Source of the DNA: a virus | IMG/VR virus record: IMGVR_UViG_3300003323_000233 | Location: 1-36,745 of that record | Direction: 5' to 3' (one strand) | DNA length: 36,745 bases | In this document: positions 10,534 through 26,756 of the stretch, one piece after another | Layout: each line of letters starts with the position of its first letter | Position numbering within the stretch: position 1 is the first letter of the stretch | Position numbers and translations under genes: made by a program | The notes under the pieces: generated by a model | What the model was told of the DNA's origin: nothing | The model's database searches: none | What the model saw: only the letters and a program-made list of their open reading frames with translations

Positions 10534-11589
10534 ATGCGCAAGAAACTTTTTTTATCTATCATTTTTGCAGCGTTCGGCCTGGTATCTGCCGGCCAATTCG
10601 CGTTAGCCGCTCTTTGCCTTTTCGCTCCATGGCAATTTTTTGAGGTGTCGGTTAAGAATTATGCCGCCGGCGCGGAACTTTTGACTCGGTATTTCCTCAC
10701 AGAAATCCAACCAAAACTATTCCCGGGACAAAGCTGGTTGCAACGCGCTCTTAATGACGATGCGTTCGTAAACAATAATTCGGTTGAATTGCCACACTCT
10801 GGAACAATTCCAGCGATAACCGTAAACCGCTCATCTTGGCCGGCATCTGCTTCTCAACGTACGGACGCGGCTACAAACTACCTTTTGGAAGAACTTTCTT
10901 CCGATCCGGTGCATATCCAGGATAGCGAAGCCCTTACAGTCGCTTACGATAAACGCGCGTCTGTTCTTACGCACCTTGCAAACAGCATTAACGCGAAAGC
11001 GGGTAACCGTGCTCTTTACAAGTGGGCCGCTGGCGCCTCTGGTGCCCGTGTGATTAAGTCCACAGGTGCGGCCCGTACGGCCGCCGGCCCTTCACAGACA
11101 GGTAACCGGAATGCGTTCACCTTGAACGATATTATCAAGGTTCGCCAAATGTTTTTCCAGGACGACGTAATCACAGAGAACGCGGATCTTATGGGTATCG
11201 CGATCCTTACACCGACACAATACGCCGACTTGTTGGCTCAATCCAACATCTTGGAAGCGCAAAAATATGGTCGCGCTAACTTCCCGTCTGGCGTGTTTGA
11301 TCGTGCACTCGGATTCGACATCTACGTGCGCTCGAGCGTCGTGGTGTACAGCAATGCGGACGCCCTTAAAGCAGAGGGAGCAAGCGCGGCAGCTACCGAC
11401 CAAGATGCGGCAGTGTTCTACCATCCGAACTTTGTACGTCGTGCAAAAGGAGCCCTGAAAATGTTTGTAAACCCTGACCGTGCCGAATACTATGGCACCT
11501 TAATGTCAGCTTTGCAACGTTTCGGTGCGGCACCTGCGAGAAACGACAACAAAGGTATTGCCGTGATCATCGAGGACGACGGGGTATAA
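10534..11589 (+). CDS. Major capsid protein
   Basis: This 351-residue protein is the probable shell subunit: it follows the protease-scaffold gene, has the expected length, and its body shows E-loop-like and P-domain-like segments (for example LPHSGTIPAITVNRSSWP, ILTPTQYADLL, FPSGVFDRALGFDIYVRSS). It is odd at the N-terminus: residues 1-20 (MRKKLFLSIIFAAFGLVSAG) look exactly like a signal peptide followed by Q21, and hydrophobicity goes on to residue 36. Such a leader would not be expected on a cytosolic capsid protein. It may be a delta-domain removed by the protease. There is no other in-frame Met near the body of the protein, so the annotated start is the only good one. Confidence 0.82.
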   Translation: MRKKLFLSIIFAAFGLVSAGQFALAALCLFAPWQFFEVSVKNYAAGAELLTRYFLTEIQPKLFPGQSWLQRALNDDAFVNNNSVELPHSGTIPAITVNRSSWPASASQRTDAATNYLLEELSSDPVHIQDSEALTVAYDKRASVLTHLANSINAKAGNRALYKWAAGASGARVIKSTGAARTAAGPSQTGNRNAFTLNDIIKVRQMFFQDDVITENADLMGIAILTPTQYADLLAQSNILEAQKYGRANFPSGVFDRALGFDIYVRSSVVVYSNADALKAEGASAAATDQDAAVFYHPNFVRRAKGALKMFVNPDRAEYYGTLMSALQRFGAAPARNDNKGIAVIIEDDGV

Positions 11590-18328: not shown

Positions 18329-18565
18329 ATGGAACACTTCAATTTTGACAATTTCCTGAAAGGCCCTGTAATGACGCTCGCAGGCCTGCTTATCATGAGC
18401 CACGCATATTACGGATGGTACATGGATGCCCTTACTAATTGGCAGGCTGGCGGTGCCGCTATGGCCGGTCTTGCGCTTATGTTTTTAAAGGATGAGTTCC
18501 CGTCCTTGTTGAAGGAATTTGCAAAATCCCTGATTGACAAGTTCAAAGGAGGCCCACAAAAATGA
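18329..18565 (+). CDS. Small membrane protein, holin candidate
   Basis: This 78-residue protein has two hydrophobic segments (about residues 12-32, GPVMTLAGLLIMSHAYYGWYM, and 38-53, WQAGGAAMAGLALMFL) and a charged C-terminus (FAKSLIDKFKGGPQK), the layout of small class II holins. It sits between the baseplate genes and the secreted fibre genes, not with the lysis genes, so it could instead be a membrane or tail-associated protein. Its stop overlaps the next start (ATGA). No family is recognised. Confidence 0.5.
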   Translation: MEHFNFDNFLKGPVMTLAGLLIMSHAYYGWYMDALTNWQAGGAAMAGLALMFLKDEFPSLLKEFAKSLIDKFKGGPQK

Positions 18566-19494
18566 AAAGACTGTTATTTTTGCTCGTTTGGCTATTTCCA
18601 TTGTTGGTCAATGGACAACAGCAAACTATAAACGTAGGCACCTCCGCCAATGATCATACAGGCGATCCGCTCCGCGATGCGTTCGTAAAGGTTAACCATA
18701 ACTTTACTGAATTATACAGCGGCGCCGGATCATCGAATTATACCGGCACCTCCCCAACGACTACCACAGTAGGCGGACTTCCGGCGGGATCTGACATTTC
18801 CAGCCATTCGATTTCCTCGATTTTACAGTCGATTTTGTGTCCTTACATTAACCCAACGTTCAGTTCGTTTTCGATTAACGTTAGCCCAACTGTCGAGGTT
18901 GGAACGGGTATTTCTTTATCAAAAACAGCCACCTGGAATATTGTTCTTGGTAGTGGAACCGTGGCTTTGTGCGACCTACTGGATGTGACAGCCGGAACGA
19001 CGTTGCTAACAAACACACCCAACGACGGAACGCAATCATTTACAGCCACAACGATCACACTAAACACCAATGGCGCCACACAAACGTGGAGAATGGTGGG
19101 ACACAACACGACCCCGGCTGGTGATTTTAATTCGAGTAATTATGTAGTAACATCCAGATTCTACCGGTTTTGGGATGCCGTCAGCGCATCGCCAACCAAT
19201 TCAGTCACGATAAGGGCGTATTCAAATAGCGCTTTTCATTCAGGCGCATCCACGTTTACGCTCGTAACCGGGACAAGTTTAACCAAATTCGTGGTGGCGC
19301 TTCCGCCGGGTGTAACAATAGCCTCGGTGTTTGATCAAACGGTAAACTCATTTGTAACCGGGGATTATGCTTTAACCGGAACCGTTAACGTGGTGGACGC
19401 TGGCGGCACTAATCGAGCATACAATATTTACGAAATGAACATCGTAACCCCGTATAGTTCATCACACAATCACGTCGTAACCACTACAAACTAA
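18562..19494 (+). CDS. Secreted fibre-like protein with Sec signal peptide
   Basis: This 310-residue protein has a clear signal peptide: residues 1-18 (MKRLLFLLVWLFPLLVNG) followed by Q19, matching the Bacteroidota Q-type cleavage. Right after it comes INVGTSANDHTGDPLRDAF and a V-N-x-N-F-x-E-L-Y segment, a motif common near the N-terminus of phage fibre and structural proteins. The remainder is T/S/N/G-rich beta-type sequence. A tail fibre with an export signal is unexpected, since virions assemble in the cytoplasm. It could be exported and act at the surface, or be added to virions after lysis. It overlaps the holin candidate (ATGA) and is 2 bases from the next gene. Confidence 0.6.
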   Translation: MKRLLFLLVWLFPLLVNGQQQTINVGTSANDHTGDPLRDAFVKVNHNFTELYSGAGSSNYTGTSPTTTTVGGLPAGSDISSHSISSILQSILCPYINPTFSSFSINVSPTVEVGTGISLSKTATWNIVLGSGTVALCDLLDVTAGTTLLTNTPNDGTQSFTATTITLNTNGATQTWRMVGHNTTPAGDFNSSNYVVTSRFYRFWDAVSASPTNSVTIRAYSNSAFHSGASTFTLVTGTSLTKFVVALPPGVTIASVFDQTVNSFVTGDYALTGTVNVVDAGGTNRAYNIYEMNIVTPYSSSHNHVVTTTN

Positions 19495-19496
19495 AC

Positions 19497-22100
19497 ATGA
19501 AAAAATTACTCTTTTTAATCTTTGCATTCGTAGCAATTTCAGCAACGGCGCAAACCGCTTTTGAGTATCCGCATCCTTACCGAAACATGGCGCCAACGCC
19601 GAATCCGGGAGATTATTACCTATACGATCAGAGCACAAAAGCGCCTTATACATCAACATCGGATGTGATCACAAAAATCCCGTTGTCTCTCCGTTATGTG
19701 AACATGGTCGTAAGTGTAAACGGATTGCTTTACCAGTTCTATCCAACGACTGCTGACGCTGATCTAAAAATATTCATTCCAAAACTTTACACCTCTGCAG
19801 GCTCCAACACAGACGGAACGATGGATCAAAATTCCATCACCACCGCATTGTCTGGCAAACAATCAACCTTAATAAGCGGGACTAACATAAAAACGATTAA
19901 TGGGAATTCAATCCTTGGAAGCGGCGATTTATCAATATCTGGCGGCGGCTCTGGTGCTGTAAATAGTGGCACATCTAATCAGATAGCTTATTACGCATCG
20001 AGCGGAACCACAGTTTCAGGAACCAACGCGCTACCGAGCAGCACAACCGCAACAACACAAGCCATTGGAGACGCCTCTACCAAAATAGCAACCGATGAGT
20101 TCGTTTCAACAGCAATAAACGGAGGAACATTGCCGACAATTACCGGGCTTAACATGAAAATCGTATCCGATGGAAATAGCAACTCCGTGGGCTACAATCT
20201 GCCGGCCGGTCAAGATTATCCTACGCAAGTATATAATGCATTGGGAGGTTCAGGTGCTGGATATTCGATAGCAAACTTCGGCGTAAGCGGGCAGACCACG
20301 CAAGACATGCAGGCCGATGCCGTTTCACAGATCGACGCTGCATATAATGGATCTAAAACCAGAAATTTTCTTTTCGCTTGGGAGGTCGAAAACGACATCT
20401 ATGTAAACAGTGTATCGGGCTCTACCGCAGCGACCAACATGCTTAACTATTGGTCTGGAAGAAAAACTGCCGGGTATTATGTTATCGGCGCAACCTCTCC
20501 GCTACGAGGGAATAATTTACTTGTAAATAGTAGAATCAAAACTGCTAACACTGCGCTGCTCGCAGGGACAAGTAACTACAATGCTATTATCGATATTCCG
20601 TCCATTCCGATGTTATCTAATACGCGCGCGTCAGGTTTTCAGTCGGATTTGACTCATTTCACATATAGCGGCGTTCTCGCGCTGCGGGATGCCTATGTCT
20701 CAAAAGTTCGTGCGTCACTAAGCCAACAGGACTATACGCCGCCAAATTTTGTAAGCTGGAACGGAAATGCTCCTGATAGAGGTATGATTGTCGGCCCTAC
20801 AAATTCTAATGCGCTTTCGTTCATAACAAACGGAAAGATCAGAGCAGAGGTAACGCCAAACGGAAGCCTTACAAGCGTTGGGGATGTTACCGCGGTTAAT
20901 GGACTGGGGATAGGTTTAACCGTGAATCCTGGCCTCACAGCATCAGCGAACAATGATAATTTAATGACCGCACTTTTCAAGCCTGCATATTTTGATAAAA
21001 ATGGCAAAACAGGCATAGTAAAAGATATTGTTCAATTCAGAGATTCAGCAGATGTCATTCAATCTCGTTGGGATGATAGAGGACGTTTCTTTCTACAGCC
21101 TACGTTCACAGCACTCAATAACAATGATCAAGGGTCTATAATGACCGGAACAACAACGGGTTATTCATCAGGAACATTTACCGCTTTATCAATAGCACCA
21201 AATCACAACTATGCCGGCAATTCTACCCGCTTTACAGCTGTCGATATCTCACCTACCGCAAACCGTGGCTCTTACACCGGCACGGTAACAACCGTTCTAA
21301 AAGTAAATTCTGGAGCGTTTGTGACATCACTTGACAAAGCTGTGGAAATAGACGCTAATGACGGAGTTGGCCTTTATATAAATCACGGGGGTAGTACATA
21401 TGCCGCAAACATTTCCTCCAGTACTTCGGGTACGATTGCGGCAATAGGTGGCACAAACGGATCTGCATTGGCATTGAATTGCTACAAAATAGATGGAACC
21501 GGCCAAACCGCATTATTTCAAAATCTTACCGGGTTAAATGCATCATCATCAATACCAATAATAACATTATCTCGCCCGGTGTCCCTTAGCAATGGTGGCG
21601 GGATAGCCTTGCCTTATCAAATTGGATCTTCAACTGGCTCACTTAGAACAGCTGGTCAATCATCCGCCTATTGGATAGACAATACTAATACTTCTGAAAC
21701 TGGCGGCATGAAATGGGAAACCATGCAGTCAGGCACCTTATCAGAAGGAATGAAGTTGGAGGGGAAAAACTTAACTGTAGATGGAACGATCACAGCATCT
21801 GGTGGATCGTACATCATTCCAACGTCACAGGCTGGTGGGCGAAATTTAACAGCATCAGATAATGGTACTTTGATTGTAACATCAAATTCAAGTCCGATCA
21901 GCATCACAATTCCAACAGGACTAACGACCGGATTCAATTGTAAAGTGGCTCAAGGAAATTCCGGAGCGGTAACCGTTTCAGGGGCAGGAGGCACAACCGT
22001 AACCGGTGGATCCTCCGGGACTGCCATCACAATAAACGCCGGTGATATTGTAGAGATCTACTGCACCGGCACAAATACCTACCTAATTAACCTACACTAA
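19497..22100 (+). CDS. Secreted tail fibre with SGNH-esterase domain
   Basis: This 867-residue protein is the largest in the genome. Residues 1-18 (MKKLLFLIFAFVAISATA) are a signal peptide with Q19 after the cut. Residues about 118-150 (ISGTNIKTINGNSILGSGDL) are a common fibre motif. Residues about 220-400 form an SGNH/GDSL hydrolase: SDGNSNS (nucleophile S228), NFGVSGQT (G262), WEVEND (N299), and DLTHF (D384 and H387), the four blocks in order. The rest is beta-rich fibre sequence with a C-terminal domain of short G/T/N repeats. It probably removes acyl groups from a surface polysaccharide. Export signals on a fibre are unusual. Confidence 0.68.
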   Translation: MKKLLFLIFAFVAISATAQTAFEYPHPYRNMAPTPNPGDYYLYDQSTKAPYTSTSDVITKIPLSLRYVNMVVSVNGLLYQFYPTTADADLKIFIPKLYTSAGSNTDGTMDQNSITTALSGKQSTLISGTNIKTINGNSILGSGDLSISGGGSGAVNSGTSNQIAYYASSGTTVSGTNALPSSTTATTQAIGDASTKIATDEFVSTAINGGTLPTITGLNMKIVSDGNSNSVGYNLPAGQDYPTQVYNALGGSGAGYSIANFGVSGQTTQDMQADAVSQIDAAYNGSKTRNFLFAWEVENDIYVNSVSGSTAATNMLNYWSGRKTAGYYVIGATSPLRGNNLLVNSRIKTANTALLAGTSNYNAIIDIPSIPMLSNTRASGFQSDLTHFTYSGVLALRDAYVSKVRASLSQQDYTPPNFVSWNGNAPDRGMIVGPTNSNALSFITNGKIRAEVTPNGSLTSVGDVTAVNGLGIGLTVNPGLTASANNDNLMTALFKPAYFDKNGKTGIVKDIVQFRDSADVIQSRWDDRGRFFLQPTFTALNNNDQGSIMTGTTTGYSSGTFTALSIAPNHNYAGNSTRFTAVDISPTANRGSYTGTVTTVLKVNSGAFVTSLDKAVEIDANDGVGLYINHGGSTYAANISSSTSGTIAAIGGTNGSALALNCYKIDGTGQTALFQNLTGLNASSSIPIITLSRPVSLSNGGGIALPYQIGSSTGSLRTAGQSSAYWIDNTNTSETGGMKWETMQSGTLSEGMKLEGKNLTVDGTITASGGSYIIPTSQAGGRNLTASDNGTLIVTSNSSPISITIPTGLTTGFNCKVAQGNSGAVTVSGAGGTTVTGGSSGTAITINAGDIVEIYCTGTNTYLINLH

Positions 22101-22101
22101 A

Positions 22102-22950
22102 ATGAAAAAACTATTACTCCTATTTATTTTAATTCCTGCCATCTGCTTTGGACAGATGAAACGCGAGGTACTGACCTACAACGGTATTCAGTACCTGAAA
22201 TACACTCCCACGACAATGGCGGTGAAAGGCGCCATATTGTACCTCCACGGTATTGGGGAAAAAGGAACAGATATTACGTTAGTTGAGAACAACGAAATTC
22301 CAAAGCAGTTAAAAAATGGCCTCGAAGTTCCCTACATCGTTGTAGCACCACAGCTTCCCTCCAACCAGGGCGGATGGTGGGCAAATACCACCGATCCGAT
22401 TATCTCCATGATGCAGACCTACAATCTTGACCTTCACCTGACGGGTATTTCCCTGGGAGGTATGGTGATTGCTACCCTGGTTTATCAGAAACCCGGCATC
22501 TTCAAAACGGCATCGTCTATCTGCGGTAAGTTCGATCCGCCAGATGGCCCGACCGGTGCATTGATGATTACTGCTATGTCGAAGATTCCTTCTATCCACT
22601 ATTATGACCCCAACGATGTTACAATTCCTTATGGTTACGGAAGTATCAAAAGTATGTGTGACCAGTTGAAAGCGCAGAGCGCCGACGTGACATTCGTAAC
22701 ATTGACAGGTAGTCCTTCTGCTCACGTTATCTGGCCCCAGGCGTATGCTACAAACCAATACTGGCAGTGGCTTAATAGTAAAGCGAGTCCGCCGGTGTTA
22801 GATCCAATCATATCGACGCAATTTGATGGCACAAACATCATATACACAACCCAATCAGGAAAGAAAATAACAGTCAGGCCGTTATCCATTGGATCCAATT
22901 GGAAGGACTTAGTGAAAAATGTATTTTTGCTAAACCTTGCCTCCCTATGA
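22102..22950 (+). CDS. Secreted alpha/beta hydrolase (esterase-like)
   Basis: This 282-residue protein has a signal peptide (residues 1-17, MKKLLLLFILIPAICFG, then Q18). It has an alpha/beta hydrolase fold: AILYLHGIGEKG (oxyanion HG at 49-50), GISLGG with nucleophile S117 (115-120), a likely acid in YYDPNDVTIP (D169 or D172), and a histidine in SPSAHVIWPQAY (H208). After residue 230 a short tail (about 50 residues) does not look like the hydrolase and may attach it to a partner. Such esterases de-esterify polysaccharides or plant cell-wall esters; the substrate is unknown. It reads unlike its neighbours in base use by eye and may be a transferred gene. A -7 box lies in its end. Confidence 0.72.
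   Translation: MKKLLLLFILIPAICFGQMKREVLTYNGIQYLKYTPTTMAVKGAILYLHGIGEKGTDITLVENNEIPKQLKNGLEVPYIVVAPQLPSNQGGWWANTTDPIISMMQTYNLDLHLTGISLGGMVIATLVYQKPGIFKTASSICGKFDPPDGPTGALMITAMSKIPSIHYYDPNDVTIPYGYGSIKSMCDQLKAQSADVTFVTLTGSPSAHVIWPQAYATNQYWQWLNSKASPPVLDPIISTQFDGTNIIYTTQSGKKITVRPLSIGSNWKDLVKNVFLLNLASL
22922..22929 (+). promoter_or_regulatory. Candidate -7 promoter box before lysis genes
   Basis: TATTTTTG is a perfect match to TAnnTTTG. It lies within the 3' end of the alpha/beta hydrolase gene, 17 bases before the ATG of the lysis-cassette membrane protein. A TTGG occurs near 22900, which is about the right distance for a -33 element. It would give the lysis genes their own start. Confidence 0.4.
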
Positions 22951-23153
22951 AAGAAAAAATTTTTTCACCTCTTGCCACACTTTTTTCCATTATTGTTTGG
23001 GTCGACGCTGTGGATTTTTTTTGGCGTTGTGTCTCTGGAATTGCGACTTTATTGATGCTTTTTTTCTACTATAAAGGGTGGAAGAAAAAACGCGTAATAT
23101 TGGATTTGGAGGAACAAAAGCTACGGGCCGAAATTGAAGCGTTAAAAAAATGA
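22947..23153 (+). CDS. Small membrane protein with coiled coil, holin candidate
   Basis: This 68-residue protein starts at the ATGA overlap with the hydrolase stop (22947); a longer frame from 22899 also exists but the overlap start is favoured. It has a membrane segment (about residues 5-18, then a second, CVSGIATLLMLFFYYKGW, 27-44) and a charged C-terminal helix (EEQKLRAEIEALKK). Its position directly before the endolysin and the two-segment layout fit a holin, or an antiholin/holin partner of the 23619 gene. Confidence 0.6.
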   Translation: MKEKIFSPLATLFSIIVWVDAVDFFWRCVSGIATLLMLFFYYKGWKKKRVILDLEEQKLRAEIEALKK

Positions 23154-23632
23154 CGAACGACCAATACATACCGCTTTTACACCCGAAAATCCGGGATATG
23201 GTGAAGGAATTCCTCAATCTATTGCTTGAGGCTGGAATCGAGGTAAAAATCACCTGTGGGATGCGTACGTTTGAACAACAAGACGCATTGTACAACCAGC
23301 CTTGTGACTGTAAGGACAATGACGGCGACGGAAAGATCGACGAGAGCGACGAAAAAGTCACCAACGCGAAAGCCGGGCAAAGTTTCCATAATTACGGGCT
23401 TGCCATCGATGTTGTTCCGATCATCAACGGAAAGGCAATGTGGGATATTAAAAACCCTGTCTGGCAAAAGATCGCACAAATAGGCCGTGAGGTAGGATTT
23501 CAGTGGGGAGGGGATTGGACTGGATTCAAAGATTACCCACATTTTGAATTCCCAAAGGCTACATCCTGGAAGGTTCTTTACAACATCAAAAAGGCCGGTA
23601 AAATAGACAAAGACGGTTATGTTTTACTTTGA
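23150..23632 (+). CDS. M15 endopeptidase endolysin with EF-hand-like loop
   Basis: This 160-residue protein is a peptidoglycan-cutting zinc peptidase of the M15 family (VanY/L-Ala-D-Glu endopeptidase type), the endolysin that opens the wall at the end of infection. Zinc ligands are H80 and D87 in SFHNYGLAID (S-x-H-x-x-G-x-A-x-D) and H131 in YPHFEF. Between the N-terminal helices and the catalytic site is an insertion, residues 56-67, DNDGDGKIDESD, which has the spacing of an EF-hand calcium loop. Some phage M15 lysins, such as that of T5, are regulated by calcium through an EF-hand-like loop. No signal peptide is seen. The start overlaps the previous stop (ATGA). Confidence 0.85.
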   Translation: MTNDQYIPLLHPKIRDMVKEFLNLLLEAGIEVKITCGMRTFEQQDALYNQPCDCKDNDGDGKIDESDEKVTNAKAGQSFHNYGLAIDVVPIINGKAMWDIKNPVWQKIAQIGREVGFQWGGDWTGFKDYPHFEFPKATSWKVLYNIKKAGKIDKDGYVLL

Positions 23633-23858
23633 ACTGATTTTTGGAATCGTTGTTACCACGATTGTAGTTAATAATTTCATCCATATTGCCGGCGTAAACC
23701 CGAAATGGATCGCCTTAGTAATCGGTGTTTTTGGCAGTGTAGTCCATTATTTCACCCATGAGAATAGCCAGATAATGGCGCTTGTCGGGTCGTTTGGTGT
23801 GGCTATGTTGTTGTACATCTACATCTATCAAACCATTAAATCCGCTCTAAAAAAATGA
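23619..23858 (+). CDS. Small membrane protein, holin candidate
   Basis: This 79-residue protein is almost all membrane sequence, with two or three segments (IFGIVVTTIVVNNF, WIALVIGVFGSVVHYF, IMALVGSFGVAMLLYIYI) and a lysine-rich end. It lies right after the endolysin, with a 14-base overlap, and before the spanin-like gene, the place and size expected for a holin. With the 22947 gene it may form a holin/antiholin pair; which one makes the hole cannot be said from sequence. Confidence 0.62.
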   Translation: MFYFELIFGIVVTTIVVNNFIHIAGVNPKWIALVIGVFGSVVHYFTHENSQIMALVGSFGVAMLLYIYIYQTIKSALKK

Positions 23859-24580
23859 CATTCCGCACGACTGTTATCGCCATTATATGGCTCGTCGCTT
23901 GCTATGGATGCGCATCCATTCAATACGGATCCGCCAAACGTAGCCTAAATCGAATTAAAGCCTACGCCAAGGATCACCCCGAATTCATGGACTCCCTTGG
24001 ATGGATTCAAAAAGACAGCCTGAAAACGTCCGGTCTACACGATGAAATTGATTTTGCAGGAACGGAGGACACGACCAAGATTGACAGCATGTCTATTCAG
24101 TTAACTAAGTTAATCGCCGGGTCTGCATTGCGAATCGGAGATAATTGGAATGAGCCGGTTTGGAATGACTCCGCCAGGGCTCAAATGGTGTTTACGAAAG
24201 GGAAATCAGGGTCATTGACTGATATTCTCGGCGGCACACTGGAAAAGTCGCCCGAGTTATTAAAAAAGCAAATTCGAGATTTACGGAAAGCCCTGGCAAC
24301 TGCCGGGTGTCCGAAATTCAAGAAAGACACAGTTTATAATTTCACAGTGATTTACGGAAAAGACACAATTAAGGTGCCGATAAATATTTCCGTGTCGGTT
24401 CAAAAAGACAAAGGCTCGGTTAAGATCGACGCCAACCAAACCAAAAAAGTCTACACAAAAAAGATCATCGAGGTGGATATAAAAAAACCGAAAGAGTTCT
24501 TTACAGATCCTTGGTTTTGGGCCTCGTCGGTAATGTTTTTGCTTTTTATCTTGCTGATTATCATTTCGTTAAAAAAATAA
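23855..24580 (+). CDS. Unimolecular-spanin-like envelope protein
   Basis: This 241-residue protein has the topology of a u-spanin. The N-terminus is a lipoprotein signal ending in LVAC (lipid-bearing Cys probably C16), the middle is a soluble, charged periplasmic part (residues about 40-210), and the C-terminus is one membrane helix (about residues 220-239, WASSVMFLLFILLIIISL) followed by KK. A single protein bound to the outer membrane by lipid and to the inner membrane by a helix fuses the two membranes at lysis. It ends the lysis cassette. The topology is observed; the function follows from the T1 gp11 type. It has no sequence motif of its own. Confidence 0.65.
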   Translation: MTFRTTVIAIIWLVACYGCASIQYGSAKRSLNRIKAYAKDHPEFMDSLGWIQKDSLKTSGLHDEIDFAGTEDTTKIDSMSIQLTKLIAGSALRIGDNWNEPVWNDSARAQMVFTKGKSGSLTDILGGTLEKSPELLKKQIRDLRKALATAGCPKFKKDTVYNFTVIYGKDTIKVPINISVSVQKDKGSVKIDANQTKKVYTKKIIEVDIKKPKEFFTDPWFWASSVMFLLFILLIIISLKK

Positions 24581-24670: not shown

Positions 24671-25894
24671 ATGAGCACAACAGTAAAAATCAAATCACAA
24701 ACAGGCTCTATCCTTGAGTTTCCAACCCTGGATAATGCCCTAAGAAACCTTAAAGGAATCAACCCGACAGGGGCCCGGTTCGACAAGATCCTCCTAACAT
24801 CACCATCCAGGCGAACATTCAAAGAGGCGCATTACCTACTCACAACCAACGGTTTTGAAATCGTGCGCGAGGGCGCGGAAGCCGTTCCGGTTCGAATTGA
24901 GGGAACTATCGAAGAAAATGGGGATTTAAAAATCGAGGTTATCGGCGGCCAGCCAGAGGTCGAGGTCGACGATGCGGTGGAGTCAGAAAATCAAAACGAA
25001 CCATCGCCAGACGACGAGCATTTCAGGTACTTAGCGAAGCGTGTCGCCCCGTTTTTGGATCTTGAACAAAAGATCGAGGACATTGAAAAAGTTGTCCAAG
25101 ACGCCTTAAAAGACCACGTTAAAGAGGTTGTTATTCACAACGAGGAAACCGGAGAGGTTAAGAATATAGGCGCGCAACATTTCCAATTTGAGGATTTACT
25201 CGCGGCAATTAAAGCGCGTGTTAACGTTCTTTTGGTTGGCCCTGCCGGATCTGGTAAAACGCAATCCTCGCACAATGTAGCCAAGGCGCTGGATTTAAAT
25301 TTCTACTCTATTTCAGTTGGTCTACAAACTACAAAAACCGAATTCTTTGGCTACATGGACGCCACCGGAAAATATGTCCGCACCTTGTTCCGTGAGGCGT
25401 TCGAACACGGCGGTGTTTTCCTTTTGGATGAAATGGACGCCGGAAACGCAAATGTATTAACTGCAATTAATCAGGCTCTCGCTAACGAGTATTGCGCGTT
25501 CCCTGACGGCATGGTGGAAAAACATAAAGACTTTATAATCATCGCATCCGCAAATACCTACGGAACCGGGGCGAACCGTGAATACGTCGGCCGCAATCAG
25601 TTGGATGCCGCTACCTTAAACCGGTTTGTTGTAATTGATTGGGATTATGACGAGGACATTGAGGGTAAAATCTGCGATAATAAAGATTGGCTCCGATTTG
25701 TCCGCCACTGCCGCGGAAAAGCAGTTGAACACAAGATCCGCACGGTAATATCCCCTCGGGATTCGATACATGGTGCACGGCTTTTAAAACAAGGCATTCC
25801 CCCTAAAAAGGTGGCAAAAATGGTGATATACAAAGGTCTGAACGAGTTAGAGGTGTCTAAACTTAAAGAAAACTTTTCCGATGCGTCATTTTAA
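24671..25894 (+). CDS. MoxR/CbbQ-like AAA+ ATPase
   Basis: This 407-residue protein is an AAA+ ATPase. Residues 190-197 (GPAGSGKT) are Walker A; GGVFLLDEMDAG (247-258) is Walker B with D253-E254; sensor 1 is in IIASANTYG. The catalytic core fits MoxR/CbbQ/CobS-type chaperone ATPases, which remodel protein complexes. The first 170 residues are a separate region, acidic in the middle (EVEVDDAVESENQNE). In this class the ATPase normally works with a partner encoded next door, here probably the 25881 gene. It is the first gene of the early block and has a leader hairpin. Confidence 0.8.
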   Translation: MSTTVKIKSQTGSILEFPTLDNALRNLKGINPTGARFDKILLTSPSRRTFKEAHYLLTTNGFEIVREGAEAVPVRIEGTIEENGDLKIEVIGGQPEVEVDDAVESENQNEPSPDDEHFRYLAKRVAPFLDLEQKIEDIEKVVQDALKDHVKEVVIHNEETGEVKNIGAQHFQFEDLLAAIKARVNVLLVGPAGSGKTQSSHNVAKALDLNFYSISVGLQTTKTEFFGYMDATGKYVRTLFREAFEHGGVFLLDEMDAGNANVLTAINQALANEYCAFPDGMVEKHKDFIIIASANTYGTGANREYVGRNQLDAATLNRFVVIDWDYDEDIEGKICDNKDWLRFVRHCRGKAVEHKIRTVISPRDSIHGARLLKQGIPPKKVAKMVIYKGLNELEVSKLKENFSDASF

Positions 25895-26756
25895 ATTTAA
25901 TAGTTTCCATCATTTCCTTAGCGATATGGAGGAATACCACAGGGCAAACCTCCATGTACGTAGCCGTGACTCCATAAATGGTTCGCCGTCATGGAATAAA
26001 AGTACATCATTCGAGCACGCCTTGGAAATTGCCAAATACGGCGAAAAAACGAATAACACCGAAATCTACTCCGAAACAGAGGTTAAAAGTTCCATGAACG
26101 AGTTAACGCTCATTCAGGCCGTAAGCGGACAACACGTCGACATTGGCGATTACTTAATGGGGATCCCTGAATGTATGCGTGATTACGACATCGCCAACCC
26201 GATAAAGTTCGTGGATTTACTTGTGGATGTGGCTGAACCTGTAATTACTGGCCCTAAAGAAATGATGAACCGGGCGACCGCCATCGCATCACAAATCGAC
26301 AACCTTGAGAGTGACGGACACCGGGTTCGTGTATCGATTTCGATGTATGTCGATTTCGATCGTGCCGAACCGATTAGTGTTATGATTCCTGTAAAGGATT
26401 ATAGTGAAGTTTTTTCCATTGAGGAACTTTACGGGGCCCTACATCCAGCAACATTTCGCAGACTGCTTTTAGGTTGGATGGAAAAGATATTCAATAACCG
26501 TATTGAGCCAGGATATGGACATCCGTCAAGCCTCGAAAACAAAGTGGCCGCATCCAAAGTGCTATCCGGCAATCCGGAGGTAATCTTTATGCCATCCATA
26601 CACACCGGGCATCAATACAAGGATTTTGATTTAACCAACGTTGTTGGCGCCATTGAATTCGTTGAGCACTGGATAAAAAATCCGATTGCTAATGAGTTGA
26701 TGGGGGGGGGCAACCAAACGGAAACGGAAATAGATAGTGGAGAACTGGAATTATGA
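25881..26756 (+). CDS. Probable partner of the AAA+ ATPase
   Basis: This 291-residue protein overlaps the ATPase gene by 14 bases. The N-terminal part carries SPSWNKSTSFEHALEIAKYG, a W-x-x-x-T-S-x-x-E-A-L-x-x-A-x-x-G pattern seen in uncharacterised phage proteins next to MoxR-type ATPases. The middle (RVRVSISMYVDFDRAEPISVMIPV) looks like strands of a compact domain. A true VWA metal site (DxSxS), which partners of MoxR usually have, was not seen. The end has a G9 run (26702-26710) encoding part of MGGGN. Role: probably a substrate adaptor, but this is inference from the gene pair. Confidence 0.5.
   Translation: MRHFKFNSFHHFLSDMEEYHRANLHVRSRDSINGSPSWNKSTSFEHALEIAKYGEKTNNTEIYSETEVKSSMNELTLIQAVSGQHVDIGDYLMGIPECMRDYDIANPIKFVDLLVDVAEPVITGPKEMMNRATAIASQIDNLESDGHRVRVSISMYVDFDRAEPISVMIPVKDYSEVFSIEELYGALHPATFRRLLLGWMEKIFNNRIEPGYGHPSSLENKVAASKVLSGNPEVIFMPSIHTGHQYKDFDLTNVVGAIEFVEHWIKNPIANELMGGGNQTETEIDSGELEL

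Follow-up and report, generated by a model that had tools for sequence, protein, structure and literature searches.

Results

Gene content of the window

The sequence analysed here (the window) is the whole of an IMG/VR phage record of 36,745 bases. Its genes run in the order terminase, portal, head protease, capsid, sheath, short tape measure, baseplate, three leader-bearing genes and lysis genes, with an AAA ATPase and replication genes 3' of the latter; this order confirms the initial annotation, which had placed the three-gene block between the baseplate and lysis genes. The features of the block and its flanks are listed below.

18329..18565, + strand: small membrane protein, holin-like by appearance (sequence only), adjoining the 5' side of fibre A
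18562..18615, + strand: Q-type Sec signal peptide of fibre A, MKRLLFLLVWLFPLLVNG (heuristic call; AGGAGG and stop/start overlap upstream)
18616..19494, + strand: predicted mature part of fibre A, a T4 gp9/10-like connector domain followed by a C-terminal beta-sandwich region
19497..19550, + strand: Q-type Sec signal peptide of fibre B, MKKLLFLIFAFVAISATA (heuristic call)
19551..22100, + strand: predicted mature part of fibre B, with N-terminal domain "B", an SGNH-esterase-like segment and a fibre-like C-terminus
22102..22152, + strand: Q-type Sec signal peptide of the hydrolase, MKKLLLLFILIPAICFG (heuristic call; divergent signal peptide-like leader in the L004 homologue)
22153..22950, + strand: alpha/beta hydrolase, esterase-like, with a GISLGG elbow and no recognised virion anchor
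23150-23632, + strand: M15 peptidase endolysin (Pfam and PHROG matches)
23619-23858, + strand: small membrane protein of the lysis region (23150..24580), by sequence appearance
23855-24580, + strand: spanin-like lipoprotein with a C-terminal membrane helix, by sequence appearance

The last of these proteins has a lipoprotein-type start (LVAC) and, lying beside the endolysin, resembles a unimolecular spanin. Directly 3' of the lysis genes, positions 24671-26756 encode a MoxR/CobS-like AAA ATPase (phrog_249) and then a phrog_1909 protein.

The baseplate hub is 37% identical (91% coverage) to that of the Flavobacterium phages lotta8 and pippi8, and about 37% identical to that of the Winogradskyella phage Peternella; we therefore regard the window as a contractile-tailed Bacteroidota phage near the Winoviridae. 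The hub, the sheath, a Clp-like head protease and the gene order are all features of Winoviridae-like myophages, and the placement draws on these individual genes and their order rather than on a genome-wide phylogeny. The relatives suggest a host within the Bacteroidota, at the level of phylum only.

Q-type signal peptides of the three proteins

The proteins encoded at 18562 (fibre A), 19497 (fibre B) and 22102 (hydrolase) had been described as carrying Sec signal peptides with Gln after the cleavage site, and this observation holds. All three show the n-, h- and c-regions and the Gln at +1 expected of signal peptidase I substrates under the Bacteroidota Q-rule, with predicted cuts at MKRLLFLLVWLFPLLVNG/QQQTIN (G18/Q19), MKKLLFLIFAFVAISATA/QTAFEY (A18/Q19) and MKKLLLLFILIPAICFG/QMKREV. 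Scoring was by a purpose-made heuristic for these three regions, not by SignalP. It returned a signal peptidase I site with Gln at +1 for 4 of the 52 window genes (these three and the capsid gene 10534), compared with 1/412 antisense ORFs, which are mostly spurious, and 0/437 ORFs (100 aa or longer) from leaderless domain-B loci. Since Gln makes up 3.7% of the residues in window proteins, three consecutive genes with Gln at +1 would be expected by chance with a probability of about 5e-5.

The start codons were considered for each gene separately. Gene 18562 has AGGAGG just upstream and an ATG that overlaps the stop of the preceding gene; no other in-frame starts are available to it than the TTG triplets at codons 7, 14 and 15. 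The next ATG of gene 19497 is codon 31, which lies within the conserved N-terminal domain, and in gene 22102 a possible alternative ATG is found at codon 19. The hydrolase homologue of L004 (60% identical) has a signal peptide-like leader of similar length and different sequence. Homologues of the fibres without a signal peptide do exist, which the initial annotation would have taken as a sign that the true start is downstream, but they carry Met right before the domain, and window fibres A and B have no ATG at that position.

The capsid gene of the window (10534-11589) starts with a signal peptide-like hydrophobic leader, MRKKLFLSIIFAAFGLVSAG, and similar starts are found on the major capsid proteins of Winoviridae relatives (L006 20685-21767, L007 2361-3368 and L008 11142-12239). 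Two possible reasons for export were considered and set aside. Disulfide formation is unlikely, as the proteins have 0-3 Cys each. The O-glycosylation motif D[ST][AILVMT] occurs at 0.49 of expectation in fibres with signal peptides, against 0.65-0.83 in controls, a deficit judged unspecific because D[ST]x overall is also low (0.60).

Virion-type domains behind the leaders

The initial annotation recognised two fibre-like proteins and one hydrolase, and profile, phmmer and structure matches bear this out. In fibre A, residues 20-81 (about 18619-18804) form a gp9/10-like domain of the baseplate-fibre connector type, directly after the predicted G18/Q19 cut. It matches phrog_677 (E 2e-10, residues 20-60) and PF07880 (E 6e-5; 23.6 bits, just under the Pfam cut-off of 25 bits). 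The structural neighbours of the C-terminal region (AlphaFold model, BFVD) include crAss-like and other phage tail fibres, and Foldseek against the PDB gave generic immunoglobulin-like matches only.

Occurrences of the gp9/10 N-terminal domain were collected by a degenerate DNA pattern scan of viral contigs, which gave at least 121 matches. Among the matches listed, the domain begins at a bare Met in 120/121 and follows a signal peptide in 0/121, and Met plus exactly 15 residues precede the GDPLR motif in 115/121. Exactly 15 residues also separate the predicted cut of window fibre A from GDPLR. Four named controls (a Bradyrhizobium phage, P-RSM6, C48C1 and Syn19) likewise have the bare start. 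Judged by this register, the leader of fibre A is an addition to a normal virion-attachment module.

Domain B, which is common to many phage fibres, lies at about 19554-19775 in fibre B (domain alignment). It stands bare at the N-terminus in 75 of 77 loci and is preceded by a Q-type leader in two (L021 and L022, whose contigs are those of L011 and L014), so that here too the leader is an add-on to an ordinary N-terminal virion module. The SGNH-esterase-like segment (about 20160-20660) has no Pfam match; phmmer against SGNH structures gave E 5e-4 for the first block, and the motif DLTHF is visible. The C-terminus matches phrog_21978, and tblastn against named phages recovered one relative of fibre B.

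The hydrolase matches the esterase 3doh (phmmer, E 4e-5) and, weakly, Abhydrolase_2; its AlphaFold model is poor (pLDDT 40) and tblastn found no relative in named phages. It would be either a soluble esterase acting on the envelope or capsule or an enzyme that assists the fibre.

Recurrence in other viral contigs

The initial annotation had proposed a search for the same three genes elsewhere. Contig L011 repeats the window order, with four consecutive Q-type leader genes of which the last encodes an alpha/beta hydrolase (AISRGG motif), and the leader set recurs in several other contigs. Within the family defined by the C-terminus of fibre A, the leader is present in the window, L003, L011, L014 and L018/L019, and absent from L002/L012, L013, L015, L017 and L020. 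Partial sets also occur: in L020 only fibre B bears a leader, and in L004 only the hydrolase does. A scan of genome contigs and 395 Bacteroidota genomes yielded a sole relative, prophage-like and with a bare fibre. Leaders are not universal, and many Bacteroidota phages have leaderless fibres: recognisable tail and fibre genes of lotta8, FPSV-S1, Peternella, fF4, 11b, FCL-2 (parts) and B40-8 carry no Q-type leaders.

Leader-bearing annotated virion proteins of Cellulophaga phages

Similar leaders were found in isolated Cellulophaga phages whose virion proteins are annotated in the public phage records; virion membership here means the MS/MS notes of these records, not raw peptides. Phage phi10:1 has four consecutive distal-tail genes with Q-type leaders, all four MS/MS-positive, and a fifth leader gene (47388) without an MS/MS note. 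Leader-bearing MS/MS-positive proteins number four in phi19:1 (one with Lys at +1), three in phi18:3 and two in phi39:1, where the leader MRKLILFFGLIFCLEMAA/Q was called by eye, the heuristic having missed it owing to a Glu. Taking the four isolates together, leaders occur on 13 of 25 distal-tail virion proteins and on 0/35 of the head and proximal tail (Fisher P 1e-6), a comparison somewhat favourable to the leaders, as the distal/proximal split is our own and phi18:3 contributes its fibre region only. No leader-bearing virion proteins were found in phi46:1 and phi18:1. Leaders are also present in phiSM, phi3:1, phi46:3, phi13:2, Nekkels_1 and Ingeline_1, for which MS notes are absent or given by similarity. 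The phages with leaders span the Assiduviridae, Pachyviridae and Duneviridae, and include the contractile-tailed phiSM.

The codons of the isolate leaders are under protein-level constraint. In a pectate-lyase leader (MKKTIYILSILLLTISGVSA) from five phages, 10 of 10 nucleotide changes are synonymous (P 2.6e-6), and in a tail-fibre leader, also from five phages, 7 of 12 (P 0.017); both P values are approximate, each change being counted once in sequences that are related. A leader and about 23 further residues (MKHTISIVLFFILSLGLNA/QTVEGTVGSDGSLIPYNVS) are common to fibres of Cellulophaga phages from different families, and because these fibres are otherwise unrelated in their distal parts, leader and anchor look like a single mobile cassette. 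The loci with this shared block are as follows:

L101 46438-47391: shared leader and block of about 23 residues
L233 6905-8584: the same
L234 2514-5691: the same
L235 5868-7844: the same
L237 7027-9003: the same
L108 26901-27812: the same
L238 6241-7194: the same

The leader protein of phiSM at L106 7209-10493, annotated as a hydrolase, has GDSL/SGNH and carbohydrate-binding-like domains and parallels window fibre B; its copy in phi3:1 is annotated as a pectate lyase. By tblastn, no homology links the fibres of the Cellulophaga phages to those of the window.

Discussion

The reading that we favour is that fibres A and B are components of the virion tail fibres, made with a cleavable Q-type Sec leader, exported, and docked on the particle at lysis; we would put its probability at roughly 0.6. 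The host Sec machinery would carry the pre-fibres into the periplasm, where signal peptidase I would cut at G18/Q19 in fibre A and A18/Q19 in fibre B, and the exposed N-terminal Gln could cyclise to pyroglutamate (in phi10:1, the predicted mature N-terminus is pyroGlu-TVEGTVGSDGSLIPYNVSGG...). Folding and oligomerisation of the fibres would then follow outside the cytoplasm. Once lysis mixes the compartments, the fibres would dock on the cytoplasmically assembled tails or baseplates; the hydrolase would be exported by the same route. Docking is placed at lysis because the inner membrane keeps Sec-exported proteins apart from cytoplasmic tails until it opens.

In its wider form, this reading describes a split assembly, with the capsid and tail built in the cytoplasm and Sec-exported fibres and enzymes gaining pyroglutamate N-termini and docking at or after lysis; as a corollary, free fibres might in addition be active at the surface of the host or be shared among particles. 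We give this proposal, corollary included, about an even chance of being correct.

Two interpretations had been put forward initially, namely that fibres join virions outside the cytoplasm and that the phage exports a surface-modifying set. The former is favoured by our results, with export, cleavage and docking as its inferred steps. According to the latter, the exported proteins would be non-virion modifiers of the cell surface in the periplasm or outside the cell, with fibre-like domains borrowed from fibres, and would block re-adsorption, de-acetylate the capsule or free progeny before lysis. The hydrolase, which has no anchor domain and may have such a role, suits this explanation, as does the leader-bearing gene 47388 of phi10:1 with no MS/MS note, and Q-rule genes of Porphyromonas gingivalis phages have been interpreted likewise (PMC10367356). 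We nevertheless consider an exclusively non-virion exported set unlikely, because the records of four isolates list 13 leader-bearing proteins as parts of the virion and because the attachment domain of fibre A lies in exact register after the cut. It should be noted that secreted protein may be carried over into Cellulophaga virion preparations, and that, besides the preferred role of the fibres in the virion, free fibres and the hydrolase may also act at the cell surface.

A signal peptide-like start need not mean export, since the capsid gene 10534 has one too. The hydrophobic start might instead anchor the protein to a membrane or to the virion, or be cut off by a phage protease, the protein staying in the cytoplasm. 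The capsid proteins of the window and of its Winoviridae relatives point in this direction, as do those of the P. gingivalis phages, which also have such starts and for which removal by the prohead protease has been suggested (PMC10367356). Against this, Gln at +1 three times running fits substrates of the host signal peptidase I, the attachment domain of the bare homologues works without a hydrophobic start, and the leaders of unrelated fibres have signal peptide features in common rather than one anchor sequence, so that we hold retention in the cytoplasm to be slightly less probable still than a purely surface-modifying set. The leaders could, finally, be annotation errors, with translation beginning downstream and the fibres being ordinary cytoplasmic proteins. 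The alternative codons of 22102 and 18562 and the homologues without signal peptides leave some room for this, but the AGGAGG and the overlapping stop and start codons of 18562, the position of the following 19497 ATG within the conserved domain, the protein-level conservation of the isolate leaders and the divergent leader kept by the L004 hydrolase make it very improbable.

The cytoplasm is generally understood to be the place where fibres of tailed phages fold and are attached. Known connectors of the T4 gp9/gp10 type (PF07880, phrog_677) have the N-terminal domain found in fibre A, but they are cytoplasmic proteins in which Met adjoins this domain at the bare N-terminus, whereas in fibre A a signal peptide stands in place of the Met. 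The coat proteins pIII and pVIII of the filamentous phages are also virion components synthesised with a Sec-type signal peptide; these phages, however, are extruded through the membrane without lysis, while the window phage is contractile-tailed and of lytic type. P22 tailspike or T4 gp9 added in vitro attaches to finished particles, and such fibres and connectors are thus able, as we propose for fibres A and B, to join otherwise finished particles outside the cell, but this is a laboratory reaction of proteins with no export signal. There is also a likeness with the Cellulophaga phages phi10:1, phi18:3, phi19:1, phi39:1 and phiSM, in which consecutive distal-tail genes have Q-type leaders and some of the products contain SGNH or carbohydrate-binding domains, albeit the proteins are non-homologous to the window fibres and the records carry no comment on the leaders. 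By analogy, we infer that the window phage behaves like these isolates.

The initial statement that no such system had been described needs to be amended in part. Q-rule signal peptides on phage genes are already known from P. gingivalis phages, in which five genes of unknown function were interpreted as modifiers of the host surface (PMC10367356). As in the window, these are genes of Bacteroidota phages in which cleavage of the signal peptide exposes Gln; the two fibre genes of the window differ in encoding virion-type fibres with attachment domains, and the leader-bearing Cellulophaga proteins in being annotated as belonging to the virion. Of signal peptide-bearing or exported virion fibres no report was found in the literature searched, the original Cellulophaga proteomics paper lying outside it.

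An export leader on virion fibres of unrelated families, in several phage families of one bacterial phylum, implies an extracytoplasmic step of assembly. If this is true, the annotation of fibres in Bacteroidota phages (start sites and mature N-termini) and their expression would change, and receptor-binding proteins and enzymes may, either ahead of lysis or following it, be active on the host surface. The export model predicts pyroglutamate N-termini in virions.

In two Winoviridae phages, Q-type leaders are also found on small genes that do not encode fibres, close to the lysis and tail region (L007 15072-15437 and L008 33331-33774); their products are possibly separate exported proteins.
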